The notes below the pieces were generated by a model, which worked only from the letters and a program-made list of their open reading frames with translations, was not told the DNA's origin and searched no databases. From Gemmatimonadota bacterium (lineage in GTDB: Bacteria > Gemmatimonadota > Gemmatimonadetes > Longimicrobiales > Gaopeijiaceae), in assembly GCA_030428885.1 (NCBI GenBank), contig JAUIEJ010000008.1:1-64000 (forward strand): 64,000 nt of DNA, in the 5' to 3' direction. Shown one piece after another: positions 28,263 to 33,041 of this stretch. The translations under genes were made by a program, and so were the position numbers. Every line of letters starts with the position of its first letter. Position 1 is the first letter of the stretch.

Positions 28263-28652
28263 TTAAGTCGGGGGCCGCCCGAACCCCAGGGCTTCCGCTG
28301 CCGCGGCCTGACTCCCGTCCAGCGTCAGGAAGTCCAGGCCCCCCGGATCGTCGGCCAGAAAGAGGGCCGTTGCGACGTGCCAGAGGTCGGCCCCCCGCAG
28401 ATATCGCACCTGCAGAACCCGCTCGATCTCGGTCGTCAGGGGCCGGTCGGGAAGGACCCACGACAGCCGTGCCAGCACCGGGTCGCCTCCTTCGACCTCC
28501 TCGCGGGCCAGCGTAGAGCGAAACTCGGCCTCGAGCAGGTTGGCGCTCACGAGCACGTCGTACCCGGCGAGCGTCCGGCCCCACTTCCGCCCCCCCGGCT
28601 CGTCGAACGCCACCGCCACGAGCCAGGAGGTGTCGACGTAGGCGACCTTCAT
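28263..28652 (-). CDS. PIN-domain toxin, VapC type
   Basis: The 129-residue protein starts at ATG 28652, overlapping the antitoxin stop as ATGA. Its PIN acidic residues are visible: YVDTSWL near the N-terminus, LLEAEFRS, RGADLWHVATALFLAD and DFLTLDGSQAAAA. These match the Asp/Glu quartet of metal-dependent ribonucleases. It is normal in length for VapC toxins. Pairing with a Phd/YefM antitoxin in the same operon supports the assignment. The RNA target is unknown. Confidence 0.88.
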   Translation of the reverse strand: MKVAYVDTSWLVAVAFDEPGGRKWGRTLAGYDVLVSANLLEAEFRSTLAREEVEGGDPVLARLSWVLPDRPLTTEIERVLQVRYLRGADLWHVATALFLADDPGGLDFLTLDGSQAAAAEALGFGRPPT

Positions 28653-28927
28653 CCGTGGCGTTCGGCGAGGAAGCGGGCCAGGGCCCCGGGGCGAGAGGCC
28701 ACGGGTCGGGGCGGCGACTCGACTTCGGCGGGGACGGAGAGAAGTCCTCGACCGCGCATCCACTCGATCCGGGCCCCCAGGCCGGTGGCCGGCTCCAGGG
28801 GACGGATTTCCGCCACGGGAGCCCCGTGGTAGGTCACGGTGACCGTGCGGCCCTCACGGACCATGCGGATCACTTCCGAGAAGCGTGACTTGGCTTCGTA
28901 GGTCGAGAAGACGGGCGAGTCGGTCAT
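28649..28927 (-). CDS. Phd/YefM-family antitoxin
   Basis: The 92-residue protein (ATG 28927) has the Phd/YefM N-terminal DNA-binding core: FSTYEAKSRFSEVIRMVREGRTVTVTYHGAPVAEIRPL. The C-terminal half is disordered and Arg/Pro-rich, and would wrap the toxin. An in-frame upstream ATG at 28960 lies across the operator repeats and is less likely. It is the first gene of the pair, so it would repress the operon with the toxin as co-repressor. Confidence 0.88.
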   Translation of the reverse strand: MTDSPVFSTYEAKSRFSEVIRMVREGRTVTVTYHGAPVAEIRPLEPATGLGARIEWMRGRGLLSVPAEVESPPRPVASRPGALARFLAERHG

Positions 28928-28938
28928 GGATCGAATCT

Positions 28939-28956
28939 GGTCAGACCGGTCAGACC
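28939..28956. promoter_or_regulatory. Tandem GGTCAGACC operator of the toxin-antitoxin operon
   Basis: Two adjacent copies of the 9-bp near-palindrome GGTCAGACC lie 12 bp upstream of the antitoxin ATG. Their position and symmetry fit the autoregulatory operator expected of a Phd/YefM system. Confidence 0.65.
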
Positions 28957-28987
28957 ACACAAGATCGTCGGGACCCTTCCGTCCGCC

Positions 28988-30205
28988 CTACGAGTCGGTT
29001 CGCTCCGCCCAGTGACGGAGCCGGCGCGCCCGGGCGTCCTTTTCCACGAGGGGCGCGACCCGGTCCTGACCGGCGAGCAGGTCGATCACGACCCGGCGCC
29101 GGCGCGCGAGGACCTCGAAGGGGCGGGTGAGCCGGCGAGCGAGGAGGCGCAGGCCGGTGGTTTGGGGCCCGTAGATGCGTCGCAGGTCGTCGTCGGGCGG
29201 AAAGAGGCTTCCGAGCAGCCCTGCCGCACGCCCGCGCCAGGTGGTCGCGGCGCGAAACCGGACGAAACCCGTGGGGAGGCTCTCGCTGCGGTCCAGCAGG
29301 TACTCTCGCGTAACGGCCACGATCTCGTCGTCGGCGGGTCCGGACCGGAGGGCCGAGAGGGGGGCGGCGGGCACGGGTGAGGCCAGGAGGTCGGCGGCGA
29401 GGGTCAGGGCGACGTAGGCGTAGGGGGCCCGCCCGTCGTCCCGGGCGGTGGCGACGAGGCGGTCCCAGTCGAGGCGGGCGGCCGCCTCGGCGATGAGGGC
29501 GTCGGCATCGCAGAGGCCCTGGAGTCCCGTCAGGAAGCGGTGATCGAAGGCCGTGTGGGTGCAGAGGTGCAGGAGCGCGTCGTCGGGGGCCAGGTGGGCG
29601 ACGGCGCGCCCTCCGTAGTCCCGGGACTCCATCCGTGACCAGAGGGCGTCGAGGTCGACGCGGAACGGTGCGTCGCCGGGGGCGATTCCGGTGTGGATCT
29701 CGACATCGTGGCTGCCCGGGCGCTCGAGGCGGGGCAGGTGGTGGCCGGGGTTGTCCCGTTCCCATTGCGGCCGGGTGGCGAAGCCCCGCTCCACGAGCCG
29801 ACCCTGGAGGCGGCGGGCCGCGTCGGGGCTGAGCAGCAGGTCGATGTCGATCATGTCGCGCACCCCCGGGTCGTCGTAGACCCGGAGGGCCAGGTGGGCT
29901 CCCTTGAGCAAGGCGACCGGGGTCGTGGAGTCCATCCGGGCGAGCATCTCCCGGAGCTGCGCCTCCATCGCCTCGTTCCGCAGTGTGGCGACGCCGTGCA
30001 GGTCCTCGAGTCGCTGGGCCACCTCGGGGGTCAGGAGGGCCCGGTCCGCCCCCAGGCGTCGGTGAAGCAGGGGCGCCACGCCGTGCCAGACGGCGGCCTC
30101 GAGCAACTCGTCGGCGACCTCGCGTCTGCGAGTCCGGAGAAGCCGCGAGAACGCGGGGTCGGTCTCCCGACGTAGCGCCGTGGGAAGCCAGCGCTCCCGG
30201 TTCAC
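28988..30205 (-). CDS. PF14907-type nucleotidyltransferase family protein
   Basis: The GTG at 30205 overlaps the stop of the methyltransferase gene (GTGA). The 405-residue protein has the NTP_transf_5 pattern: VALLKGAHLALRVYDDPGVRDMIDIDLLLSPDAARRL, with the DID metal-binding residues, LVERGF, and HDVEIHTGI. A helical C-terminal half has His-rich LLHLCTHTAFDHRFLTG and ends in a basic region. The family resembles eukaryotic-type nucleotidyltransferases and is commonly near HprK-like and PqqD genes. Here both lie within 3 kb. The acceptor is unknown, and a role in modifying a peptide or surface compound is inference. Confidence 0.78.
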   Translation of the reverse strand: MNRERWLPTALRRETDPAFSRLLRTRRREVADELLEAAVWHGVAPLLHRRLGADRALLTPEVAQRLEDLHGVATLRNEAMEAQLREMLARMDSTTPVALLKGAHLALRVYDDPGVRDMIDIDLLLSPDAARRLQGRLVERGFATRPQWERDNPGHHLPRLERPGSHDVEIHTGIAPGDAPFRVDLDALWSRMESRDYGGRAVAHLAPDDALLHLCTHTAFDHRFLTGLQGLCDADALIAEAAARLDWDRLVATARDDGRAPYAYVALTLAADLLASPVPAAPLSALRSGPADDEIVAVTREYLLDRSESLPTGFVRFRAATTWRGRAAGLLGSLFPPDDDLRRIYGPQTTGLRLLARRLTRPFEVLARRRRVVIDLLAGQDRVAPLVEKDARARRLRHWAERTDS

Positions 30206-31809
30206 CGGGTCTTCCCGCCCATCAGCCTCGCCACGGAGAGGTGGAGCATCACGTGGTCGAGGTGACGGACATCGGGCGCCGCGGCCAGGGCGTCGGGGTT
30301 CGCCGGTCCGTCGCCGTCGGGCCAGCCGCTCCAGTAGCCGGGCGCGCGAGCGAGGAGGTCGGTCAGGGCGGCCGCCGCCTCGGGCGTCCGGCCGAGGCGG
30401 ACTTCGGCCAGGGCGCGCAGGTGGAGCTGGGCCGGGGTGAGGAGCTCGTCGCGGGCGACCTCCTCGAGCCCGTCGAGCACGGCTTCGTGGAGTCCCGCTC
30501 GCGCGAGCACGAGGGTCGCCTTCGTGGCGAGCTGGTCGGTGCCCGTCACCGACGGGAGATCGTTGCGCAGGGCCCGAAGAAGGGCCTCGCGAAGCATGGT
30601 GCGGTCGACGGTCTTCCCGGCTTCGAGGCTCCGGTCGAGATGGGGGATCGCCCCCTCCACCGAGACGGGGTCGAAGCCGGCCATGCGAAGCCAGGCCAGG
30701 GCCGTCCAGCTCTCGAGCTCGCCCTCGTGGGCCAGAATCAAGTCGTCGAGGTTCTGGGCGTCGGGGGGACCGAACCCCAGGAGCCGCGCGCGGGCGGCCT
30801 CTTCGCACCGGCCCAGGGCCACGTTGCCCCCGCGCAGGAACGCCCCCACGACGAAGTCGGAGTCCTCGGCTCGTGGGAATACGGCGGTGGCTCCCCGGGC
30901 CTCGAACACGCGGCCCAGGAGGTCGAAGTTGGTCCGGCAGGCCACGTAGGCGTGGTGGAGGAGTGGCACCTCGTCGGGGAACGCTTCGATGGTGATGGCC
31001 AGATCGCCCGTCAACACGAGGGTGGGGTCGGCACCGTCGCTCAGGGCCCCGAGAAATCGGATGACCTTCACGGGCACCGGCACGTACCCCGTGGCGCCCC
31101 GGCGCCGGTAGCCTTCGATCTCGCGGTCGACGAGAGGGTGGCCCGTGATCGGGACGTCCGTGGGAATCGGCCGATCCTCCGTGCGCACCTCGAGCCCGGA
31201 TAGGTCGGGACGTCCCGACTCCCGCTCCCGCACCTCGCCTTCGAGGGCCACGTGCACCCGATGCACCCGGCCCTCGCGCAGCAGGAGCATGTCGGTGGGC
31301 ACGCTGTCGAAGACGTAGTTCGCGATGACCACTACCGGACGGTCGGTGAGGGGTACGGGCACGCCGTCGAGATCGACCACTTCGGTGGGTGGGGTCTCGT
31401 CGACTCTCAGCACCCCGAGGTGGATCTCCGGGCGCGCGAACCAGCGCGCCATGCGGGGTTCGCCCAACCATGCGCGGGCGTGGGCCGCCGAGGTCTCCGT
31501 CAGCAGGACGTCGACCGGGAGGTCGTCGTCGGGGCTGATCTCGGCGAGGCGACGGGTCCAGTGCCAGCCCAGGAGGCCGCTCCCCGCACCCAGTTCCACG
31601 ACCAGGGGTCGGGCGGTCGAGCCCGCCGCCTCCAGATCGCGCATGAAGGCGGCGATGATCTCCGCGTAGGCGTCTGCGATCCAGGCGTTGCTCGAGATCC
31701 GGCTCGGGACGGTTCCCGACGCCCACGACTCGAGCCCCCGCTCGGTGTAGAACGTCGCGATGGAGTCCCATATCGAGGACTCCTCGAAGGGTCGGAACGA
31801 CTCCTTCAC
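30202..31809 (-). CDS. SAM-dependent methyltransferase-like protein with helical C-terminus
   Basis: The 535-residue protein has a class I SAM-binding glycine motif VVELGAGSGLLG (about 70-81). Further on it has VVIANYVFDSVPTD, which parallels the aNEffDalP motif of MidA/NDUFAF7-type methyltransferases. Residues 350-535 are helical and repeat-like (LAWLRMAGFDPVSVEGA, LVLARAGLHEAVLDGLEEVARDELL), suggesting TPR-like repeats. It sits upstream of and overlaps the nucleotidyltransferase, and its start is only 41 bp from the divergent HprK-like gene. The methyl acceptor is unknown; MidA homologues methylate protein arginine. Confidence 0.66.
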   Translation of the reverse strand: MKESFRPFEESSIWDSIATFYTERGLESWASGTVPSRISSNAWIADAYAEIIAAFMRDLEAAGSTARPLVVELGAGSGLLGWHWTRRLAEISPDDDLPVDVLLTETSAAHARAWLGEPRMARWFARPEIHLGVLRVDETPPTEVVDLDGVPVPLTDRPVVVIANYVFDSVPTDMLLLREGRVHRVHVALEGEVRERESGRPDLSGLEVRTEDRPIPTDVPITGHPLVDREIEGYRRRGATGYVPVPVKVIRFLGALSDGADPTLVLTGDLAITIEAFPDEVPLLHHAYVACRTNFDLLGRVFEARGATAVFPRAEDSDFVVGAFLRGGNVALGRCEEAARARLLGFGPPDAQNLDDLILAHEGELESWTALAWLRMAGFDPVSVEGAIPHLDRSLEAGKTVDRTMLREALLRALRNDLPSVTGTDQLATKATLVLARAGLHEAVLDGLEEVARDELLTPAQLHLRALAEVRLGRTPEAAAALTDLLARAPGYWSGWPDGDGPANPDALAAAPDVRHLDHVMLHLSVARLMGGKTR

Positions 31810-31850: not shown

Positions 31851-32633
31851 ATGAGCCCACTCGCCACCGTCTCCGCCGTCGAGGCCTTCGGGGTCCGAAT
31901 CCGCATCCGGGCGCCCGCCGGGCTCCACGACGGCGTAGATGTGCGGCCCCCGCCGTCCGCACGCCCCCACCAGGGCAGGGAGTGGGACGTCGAGTACGTC
32001 GTGCGTCCGGCCGCGGCCGGTGGGATCGACGTCGCCCGCGGCGGCGAACCGATGGGCCGGTTCGCCGACATCGCCGCGGCCAGCTTCGAAATCGAGTCGG
32101 ATCAGCATTTCCGGGTTGCGGTGACGGCGCGAGACCACCTGTTCGTCCACGCCGGGGTGGTGCTCGTCGGCGACCGGGCCCTGGTCCTGCCGGGGCGGAC
32201 CCTGGCGGGAGAAAGTACGCTGGTCCTGGCGCTGGTGAGAACCGGAGCCACGTACTTTTCCGACGAATTCGCGGTGCTCGACGCCCAGGGGCGGGTCCAT
32301 GCGTACCGGAAGCCGTTGTCGGAGCGCGTCGAGGGCGCTCCCCGTCCGCGCCTCCACCCGCCGGAAACGTTGGGGGGCTCCACCGACGGACGGGGCCGCA
32401 GCCTCGGCTGGGTCGTCTCCACCCGGTTTCGGCCCGCCGGAGCCTGGGCTCCCGCCCCGATGAGTCGTGCCGATGCGGTCATGGCGCTCTTTGACAACAC
32501 GGTATTGGCCCGGGAGCGGCCCGACTTCGCTCTGGAGCGCCTCACGCGGGCCGTGGAAGGGGCCCATGCACTTCGCGGCGACCGGGGAGAGGCCCCGATC
32601 GCCGCGAAGAGGATCCTGGAAGATCTGGCGTAG
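31851..32633 (+). CDS. HprK-like (HPr kinase-related) protein with altered P-loop
   Basis: The 260-residue protein resembles the C-terminal kinase half of HPr kinase/phosphatase. His100 (LFVHAGVV) precedes a phosphate-loop segment, LPGRTLAGESTLV (113-125), followed by TGATYFSDEFAVLD, the counterpart of the HprK SDD region. The conserved P-loop lysine is Glu121 (codon GAA at 32211), which should weaken ATP binding. The N-terminal hundred residues are beta-rich and not HPr-specific. There are no HPr or PTS genes in the window, so classical sugar regulation is unlikely. It lies opposite the PqqD gene, with stops three bases apart, inside the nucleotidyltransferase island. A pseudokinase role is possible. 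Confidence 0.72.
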   Translation: MSPLATVSAVEAFGVRIRIRAPAGLHDGVDVRPPPSARPHQGREWDVEYVVRPAAAGGIDVARGGEPMGRFADIAAASFEIESDQHFRVAVTARDHLFVHAGVVLVGDRALVLPGRTLAGESTLVLALVRTGATYFSDEFAVLDAQGRVHAYRKPLSERVEGAPRPRLHPPETLGGSTDGRGRSLGWVVSTRFRPAGAWAPAPMSRADAVMALFDNTVLARERPDFALERLTRAVEGAHALRGDRGEAPIAAKRILEDLA

Positions 32634-32636
32634 GGG

Positions 32637-33041
32637 TCACCCCTTCTTCTTTCCCGCCCCCTTCTTCTTGACCGGGGCGCCGCCCGATTGGGCCTGGGCC
32701 GCCAGCGGCGCGTTGATCGACGTGATGGCCGGGAGCATGAGCCCCACGGCGGCAGCGGCGGCCACGCGGGCGAGTGCCTGGCGACGGGTCACGGGAAGGG
32801 CCTCGCCGTCGGCCAGCAGCCCGGCCTGGGCCAGGGTGTCGATGGTGAGCTCGACGACGCTCTCGTCGATCTCGAGTTCGGCGGCGAGATCGGCCACGGA
32901 GCGGCTGCCGTCGAGGAGCGGCCAGACCGACGCCACGGTCTCGTTCAGGCGGTGGGCCTTCTTCGACGTTTTGTCGTAGACGACGGCTTCCTGATCGACG
33001 ACGTGGACGAGGACGTCCTGGTGGCGGGCCTTCGGGTTCAT
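32637..33041 (-). CDS. PqqD-family protein with Tat-like tail
   Basis: The 134-residue protein (ATG 33041, AGGAG eight bases upstream) has a PqqD/RRE fold at about 1-82: VLVHVVDQEAVVYDKTSKKAHRLNETVASVWPLLDG, then VADLAAELEID and TLAQAGLL. Residues 85-118 look like a twin-arginine export signal in the wrong place: TRRQAL, an Ala-rich hydrophobic stretch, MLPAITSINAP and AAQAQ. A short Lys/Gly tail ends the protein (KKKGAGKKKG). PqqD domains hold precursor peptides for modifying enzymes, so this could be a peptide chaperone with a membrane tail, or leader and exported core in one chain. It is convergent with the HprK-like gene. Confidence 0.78.
   Translation of the reverse strand: MNPKARHQDVLVHVVDQEAVVYDKTSKKAHRLNETVASVWPLLDGSRSVADLAAELEIDESVVELTIDTLAQAGLLADGEALPVTRRQALARVAAAAAVGLMLPAITSINAPLAAQAQSGGAPVKKKGAGKKKG

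Follow-up and report, generated by a model that had tools for sequence, protein, structure and literature searches.

In the lasso peptides paeninodin and pseudomycoidin, the available part of PMC8498205 describes a PqqD-type RRE together with an HprK homologue that phosphorylates the precursor and a nucleotidyltransferase that adds hexoses, and it places the modification made by known HprK homologues on a C-terminal Ser. The linear polyphosphorylated peptide (LPP) systems of Bacillota, as presented in the available part of PMC13381572, comprise an RRE, an HprK-like kinase and an NTP transferase, with variable C-terminal cores, signal-peptidase-like removal of the leader and a location in capsule loci, and the same part gives [Y/W]xxPx[LVIFA] as the RRE-binding motif in the leaders of both lasso and LPP systems. 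A kinase and PqqD pair from the same wide families is also found in HPr-rel-A (TIGR04352 and TIGR04353).

Here, we analyse a gene whose product appears to carry an RRE and an exported tail in one chain. The window, that is, the whole stretch of DNA analysed, comprises 64,000 nucleotides of a Gemmatimonadota bacterium (assembly GCA_030428885.1, contig JAUIEJ010000008.1). The gene starts with an ATG preceded by AGGAG, and its protein runs from a PqqD/RRE domain through TRR, a hydrophobic run, PAITSINAP and an AxA site to a Lys/Gly tail (Table 1). With a probability of roughly 0.6, we read the family to which it belongs as one whose members join an RRE in cis to a Tat-type signal and to a secreted core rich in disulfides, and the gene in the window as a divergent member.

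Table 1. Features of the RRE gene and its neighbours in the window, with the evidence for each.
Feature	Position	Strand	Evidence
RRE-Tat-tail protein P0001	32637..33041	-	134 aa; ORF reading, profile matches, model, family alignment
PqqD/RRE domain, residues 1-81	32799..33041	-	PF05402 31.0 bits; RRE-like fold, lasso B1 top matches
Twin-arginine and hydrophobic segment TRRQALARVAAAAAVGLML, residues 85-103	32733..32789	-	TIGR01409 15.7 bits; RR 70/70, 69/70 in family
Family motif PAITSINAP, residues 104-112	32706..32732	-	P104 68/70, P112 66/70; modelled strand 106-110
AQA, predicted signal-peptidase site, residues 115-117	32691..32699	-	A115 48/70, A117 51/70; putative cleavage
Predicted released tail QSGGAPVKKKGAGKKKG, residues 118-134, without cysteine	32640..32690	-	Cys-rich in 60/70 family members
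HprK-like kinase	31851..32633	+	TIGR04352 52.6 bits, E 3.4e-14, cut-off 200
Kinase Walker A, GRTLAGEST	32193..32219	+	Lys position is Glu121, codon 32211-32213 GAA
NTP_transf_5 nucleotidyltransferase	28988..30205	-	PF14907 E 2.1e-44 on 28988-30142; GTG start predicted
Possible methyltransferase/TPR protein	30202..31809	-	Methyltransf_28 17.3 bits, below cut-off 23.3

A sequence-only reading of this DNA had proposed a PqqD/RRE chaperone at the N-terminus, and both profile and model agree with it. PF05402 (PqqD) matches residues 18-59 above its gathering cut-off (31.0 bits against 23.4), and AlphaFold2, run on a 70-row family alignment, gives a model with a mean pLDDT of 84.6 and an RRE-like fold over residues 1-81, to which the closest structures are lasso B1 RREs (6jx3_B, Z 9.4; 5v1u_B and 5v1v_A, Z 8.9). 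The structural-alignment rows mostly cover residues 1-81, and 8vpo (TigE) alone covers 1-109. On residues 84-103, the TIGR01409 TAT signal model scores 15.7 bits, slightly below its cut-off of 16.7, and a search with a defence-system library gave a weak Csa3 match alone, on residues 8-85.

Of 196 related genomes searched with the window protein, 30 had matches. Many of these were plain PqqD domains, and the frames read at the better matches have the whole layout in common, with Cys-rich tails at the end. When 395 genomes of the phylum were searched with a profile, 70 had matches, plain PqqD proteins among them, while in a second phylum, the Acidobacteriota, 50 of the 396 genomes searched had matches at E<=1e-10, and the neighbourhoods were read for 32 of these 50. 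We gathered 75 members from 53 genomes, 14 of which carry at least two copies and one of which is Gemmatirosa kalamazoonensis KBS708. Seventy of them, the window protein included, were aligned. The alignment leaves out G761 (start uncertain), G069 (in-frame stop upstream) and G579, whose tails have 8, 8 and 6 cysteines by eye, as well as a second G011 copy cut by a contig end and the divergent G153, whose tail has no cysteine. That distant member (L132:13552-14199) has a long, charged tail ending in FFRRRED.

The window gene belongs to a widespread and, it seems, undescribed family of Gemmatimonadota and Acidobacteriota. Among the Pfam and NCBIfam models that matched, none spans the whole layout of RRE, signal and tail, and in the openly licensed literature we found no published account of an RRE or PqqD domain fused to a twin-arginine signal and a Cys-rich tail, or of an RRE-precursor fusion. 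Relatives were found in none of the viral contigs and phages searched, and a plasmid search returned Gemmatirosa matches and weak Halobacterium PqqD matches. The genome of the window also encodes a second PqqD protein (G000:C2:371978-372247, L051), with a C-terminal extension that ends in LLALDPPMPGLGTVPAE; its locus (L001) also matches the kinase and NTP_transf_5 profiles.

Conservation across the 70 aligned members extends well beyond the RRE. The twin arginines are near-invariant (R86 in 70, R87 in 69), and the segment that follows has the family motif LxxPx[VI]x[ST][IL]xAP, with P104 in 68 members, [VI]106 in 69, [ST]108 in 62 and P112 in 66, followed by the AxA columns (A115 in 48, A117 in 51). 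A short form of this motif, P.[VI].[ST][ILMV], occurs in 61 of the 75 members, compared to none of 29 ordinary Tat-model matches from related genomes (30 TIGR01409-matched loci, 29 resolved, one or two of the 29 frames being doubtful). Because the RR and proline columns are conserved and the short motif is absent from ordinary Tat-model matches, the segment resembles a Tat-type signal that carries an additional, family-specific motif. In the genome of the window, TatC is present and signal peptidase I is matched three times. We also considered whether the [ST]C that follows AxA might be a lipobox and set this aside, since Thr stands before Cys in many rows, against the usual lipobox rule.

The sequence-only reading had taken this segment for an export signal at the C-terminus. 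The conserved RR, P and [VI] columns favour the signal, but it does not stand at the very end of the protein: a tail follows it, which in most relatives is longer and Cys-rich. The check on homologues that the sequence-only reading had set gives a split outcome: RR, the hydrophobic run and TSI/AP are conserved, whereas the Lys/Gly tail is not kept. The same hydrophobic stretch with AxA could instead be a Sec/YidC signal anchor in which the arginines set topology only, and TIGR01409 scores are indeed weak across the family (E<=0.01 in 2 of 70 members alone), but this leaves the near-invariant RR, which in 45 of 70 members stands in the context [ST]RRx-phi-[LIVMA]-[KR], without an explanation, and we regard it as unlikely. 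Tat signals are N-terminal as a rule. The Rieske protein Sco2149, as described in the available part of PMC5449189, likewise has a twin-arginine that is not N-terminal, although signals of that type follow Sec-inserted membrane segments and the present one comes after a soluble domain.

The tails that follow the AxA site combine constancy with rapid change. After residue 118, cysteines number 0 in 8 rows, 2 in 2, 6 in 29, 8 in 24, 10 in 6 and 12 in 1, so that 60 of 70 rows have 6-12 and the number is even in 70 of 70 (62 of them non-zero), compared to 52 even and 18 odd in the heads of the same rows; because the aligned rows are related, these parity counts cannot be treated as independent trials. 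Hardly any variation is seen at the main cysteine columns, and values in the loop columns go up to 3 to 3.7 bits. In 51 of 51 close pairs, the two tails resemble each other less than the two heads do, on average 35% compared to 68%. Conserved, evenly numbered cysteines in a fast-changing tail are the pattern expected of a secreted peptide with all its cysteines paired, and the typical tail is apparently a fast-evolving, exported, disulfide-rich peptide. Small disulfide-rich Pfam families match a few of these tails, with at most two members each. The members from G405 and G323 (L120, L121, L122) have Asn/Gln/Gly-rich or other Cys-free tails, for example NQNGQGQNNNNQG.

These tails also bear on the membrane anchor that the sequence-only reading had offered as its alternative. 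On this view, the hydrophobic segment would be a single-pass anchor that holds a PqqD chaperone at the membrane, and the tail, that of the window copy at any rate, would have no function of its own. The hydrophobic run after RR would suit such a role, as would the tail of the window copy, which is short, basic and common to no relative seen, since basic tails can bind lipid. An anchor leaves unexplained, however, why a conserved cysteine scaffold, even in number in all 70 rows, follows the hydrophobic run, why AxA is conserved and why genomes carry multiple copies, and we consider it quite improbable.

An HprK-like kinase and an NTP_transf_5 nucleotidyltransferase are frequent neighbours of the family. 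In the window, the RRE gene and the kinase are convergent, tail to tail, with 3 bp between their stop codons, and the NTP_transf_5 gene is an open frame with a DIDLLL motif. Within 1.5 kb, a kinase lies beside 49 of the 75 members compared to 6 of 31 tail-less PqqD control loci (Fisher p 1.6e-5), NTP_transf_5 beside 43 compared to 3 (p 3.7e-6) and both together beside 33 compared to 2 (p 1e-4), where the control loci come from nearer relatives only and, the loci being related, the Fisher figures are not independent trials. For the window, this count used a distance of 566 bases between the RRE and NTP_transf_5 genes, taken from an over-long ORF, which becomes ~2.4 kb with the predicted start. 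Eleven of the 75 members, some near contig ends, have neither gene within 5 kb. By eye, the nearest relative (L119) has an ORF resembling the possible methyltransferase/TPR protein between its NTP_transf_5 and kinase genes. Several Acidobacteriota loci sit in polysaccharide clusters with glycosyltransferases, Wzy_C, Poly_export and sugar epimerases. MauE-like membrane proteins lie near four loci with Cys tails (L123:9878-10801, L125:5810-7072, L127:9946-11424 and L129:5871-6848); three have a C[PA][FH]C motif by eye, the one at L127 has a weak Thioredoxin_2 match, and these neighbours could serve disulfide formation. Elsewhere in the window, overlapping PIN-domain and Phd/YefM-like ORFs (28263-28960, minus strand) form a possible VapBC-type toxin–antitoxin pair, with the antitoxin below its cut-off.

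By analogy, the family may be a new variant of RRE/HprK/NTP-transferase peptide systems, akin in logic to the lasso and LPP RiPP systems. It shares with LPP, as far as the available part of PMC13381572 describes it, the kinase and NTP transferase beside an RRE, the variable C-terminal cores, the signal-peptidase-like removal of the leader, which is predicted here, and the polysaccharide loci. In LPP, however, RRE and precursor are two proteins, the RRE being discrete, whereas here both are presumably parts of a single chain that also has a Tat-type signal and a Cys-rich core. LPP also has its own SpI peptidase and an MsbA-like transporter, and neither was recognised among the recurrent neighbour clusters here. 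The fused segment reads LxxPx[VI], without the full LPP precursor motif YxxPxVLxHQxIxFETxxS, and we do not assign the family to LPP because no separate precursor was recognised. From paeninodin and pseudomycoidin, in the terms of the available part of PMC8498205, it appears to differ in its recurrent neighbours, among which we recognised neither a lasso cyclase nor a B2 protease, and it differs in its C-termini, which are not Ser. We also set it apart from HPr-rel-A, because its proteins fall short of the equivalog cut-offs: TIGR04353 gives 21.6 bits on the window PqqD protein (cut-off 35) and TIGR04352 gives 52.6 bits on the window kinase and 51.8-90.4 on five related kinases (cut-off 200). 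TIGR04353 has 74 modelled positions and, unlike the window protein, no tail.

In the mechanism that we propose, the N-terminal RRE would remain cytoplasmic and recruit, or present a substrate to, the HprK-like kinase and the NTP_transf_5 nucleotidyltransferase, which may phosphorylate or glycosylate the tail. The Tat-type signal would take the chain across the membrane, a signal peptidase cut at AxA would free the short tail outside and, in most relatives, its cysteines would pair into disulfides. Chemistry of this kind on the tail is suggested by the precedent of the lasso-peptide enzymes in the available part of PMC8498205; as a C-terminal Ser is found in 1 of 75 members, the phosphorylation site would differ from that of the known HprK homologues described there. 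The earlier suggestion of a precursor with a built-in RRE fares well for the family, where we observe conservation of the Tat-type motif and of AxA, cysteines in even number, a tail that evolves fast, multiple copies and the two neighbours, and less well for the window copy, which is atypical. Against a precursor stand the position of the Tat signal, which is not N-terminal, the 8 of 70 tails without cysteine (the window's included), neighbours that are not universal and a window kinase that lacks its Walker lysine.

The family motif may have a further role. AlphaFold models of the window protein and of G008 both place a strand at the TSI motif (residues 106-110 and 123-126, respectively), and for this reason we considered whether it could dock on the RRE sheet. 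Block 101-110 of the window model has a pLDDT of 87, while confidence in the tails of the models is low (block means of about 52-63). At position 101, 54 of 70 aligned members have L, V or I, and L101-x-x-P104-x-[VI]106 is spaced like the leader motif that RREs bind. The export signal might thus double as a ligand of its own RRE, with the Tat signal held and hidden in cis until the kinase and nucleotidyltransferase modify the tail, so that the modified peptide alone is exported. We consider this model-based idea speculative and rather unlikely; if true, the RRE would be a built-in proofreading chaperone for its own peptide.

The window copy itself departs from the family. Its nearest relative, G024, is 63-64% identical and forms a supported pair with it in the tree (SH-aLRT 96), yet has the tail DGAICDAPCTF, with two cysteines. 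None of the relatives seen ends in exactly this Lys/Gly tail, a search of other frames for a hidden Cys-rich tail revealed none, and the gene is absent from five other genomes of the genus in which it was sought (present in 1 of 6 genus members). As the tail is unconserved in these comparisons, it may be degenerate. Where 46 of 47 aligned kinases keep the Walker-A lysine, the window kinase reads GES for GK[ST] and looks inactive, and together with the Cys-less Lys/Gly tail this suggests that the copy is probably in decay or has taken on a different role. Its extreme form, in which the copy is a relic whose locus makes nothing, with a precursor that has lost its Cys core and a kinase that has lost its lysine, draws on the same glutamate, cysteine-free tail and restricted occurrence in the genus, and on the two tail cysteines of the nearest relative; it is weakened by full-length open frames for both the RRE gene and the kinase, by intact RR, PAITSINAP and AxA, and by the open NTP_transf_5 frame with its motif. 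We give it somewhat less than even odds; it concerns the window copy alone and is compatible with a precursor function for the family.

If the family is as we read it, an RRE and its substrate can form one chain, and RiPP-type tailoring by an HprK kinase and a nucleotidyltransferase would be tied to Tat export and polysaccharide loci. According to the available part of a 2025 survey (PMC12710340), 21% of PF05402 proteins are above discrete-RRE size without a further Pfam domain, and the window family belongs to that oversize pool. As Gemmatirosa kalamazoonensis KBS708 has a member, the idea that an RRE and an exported, disulfide-rich peptide may be made as a single protein is testable.
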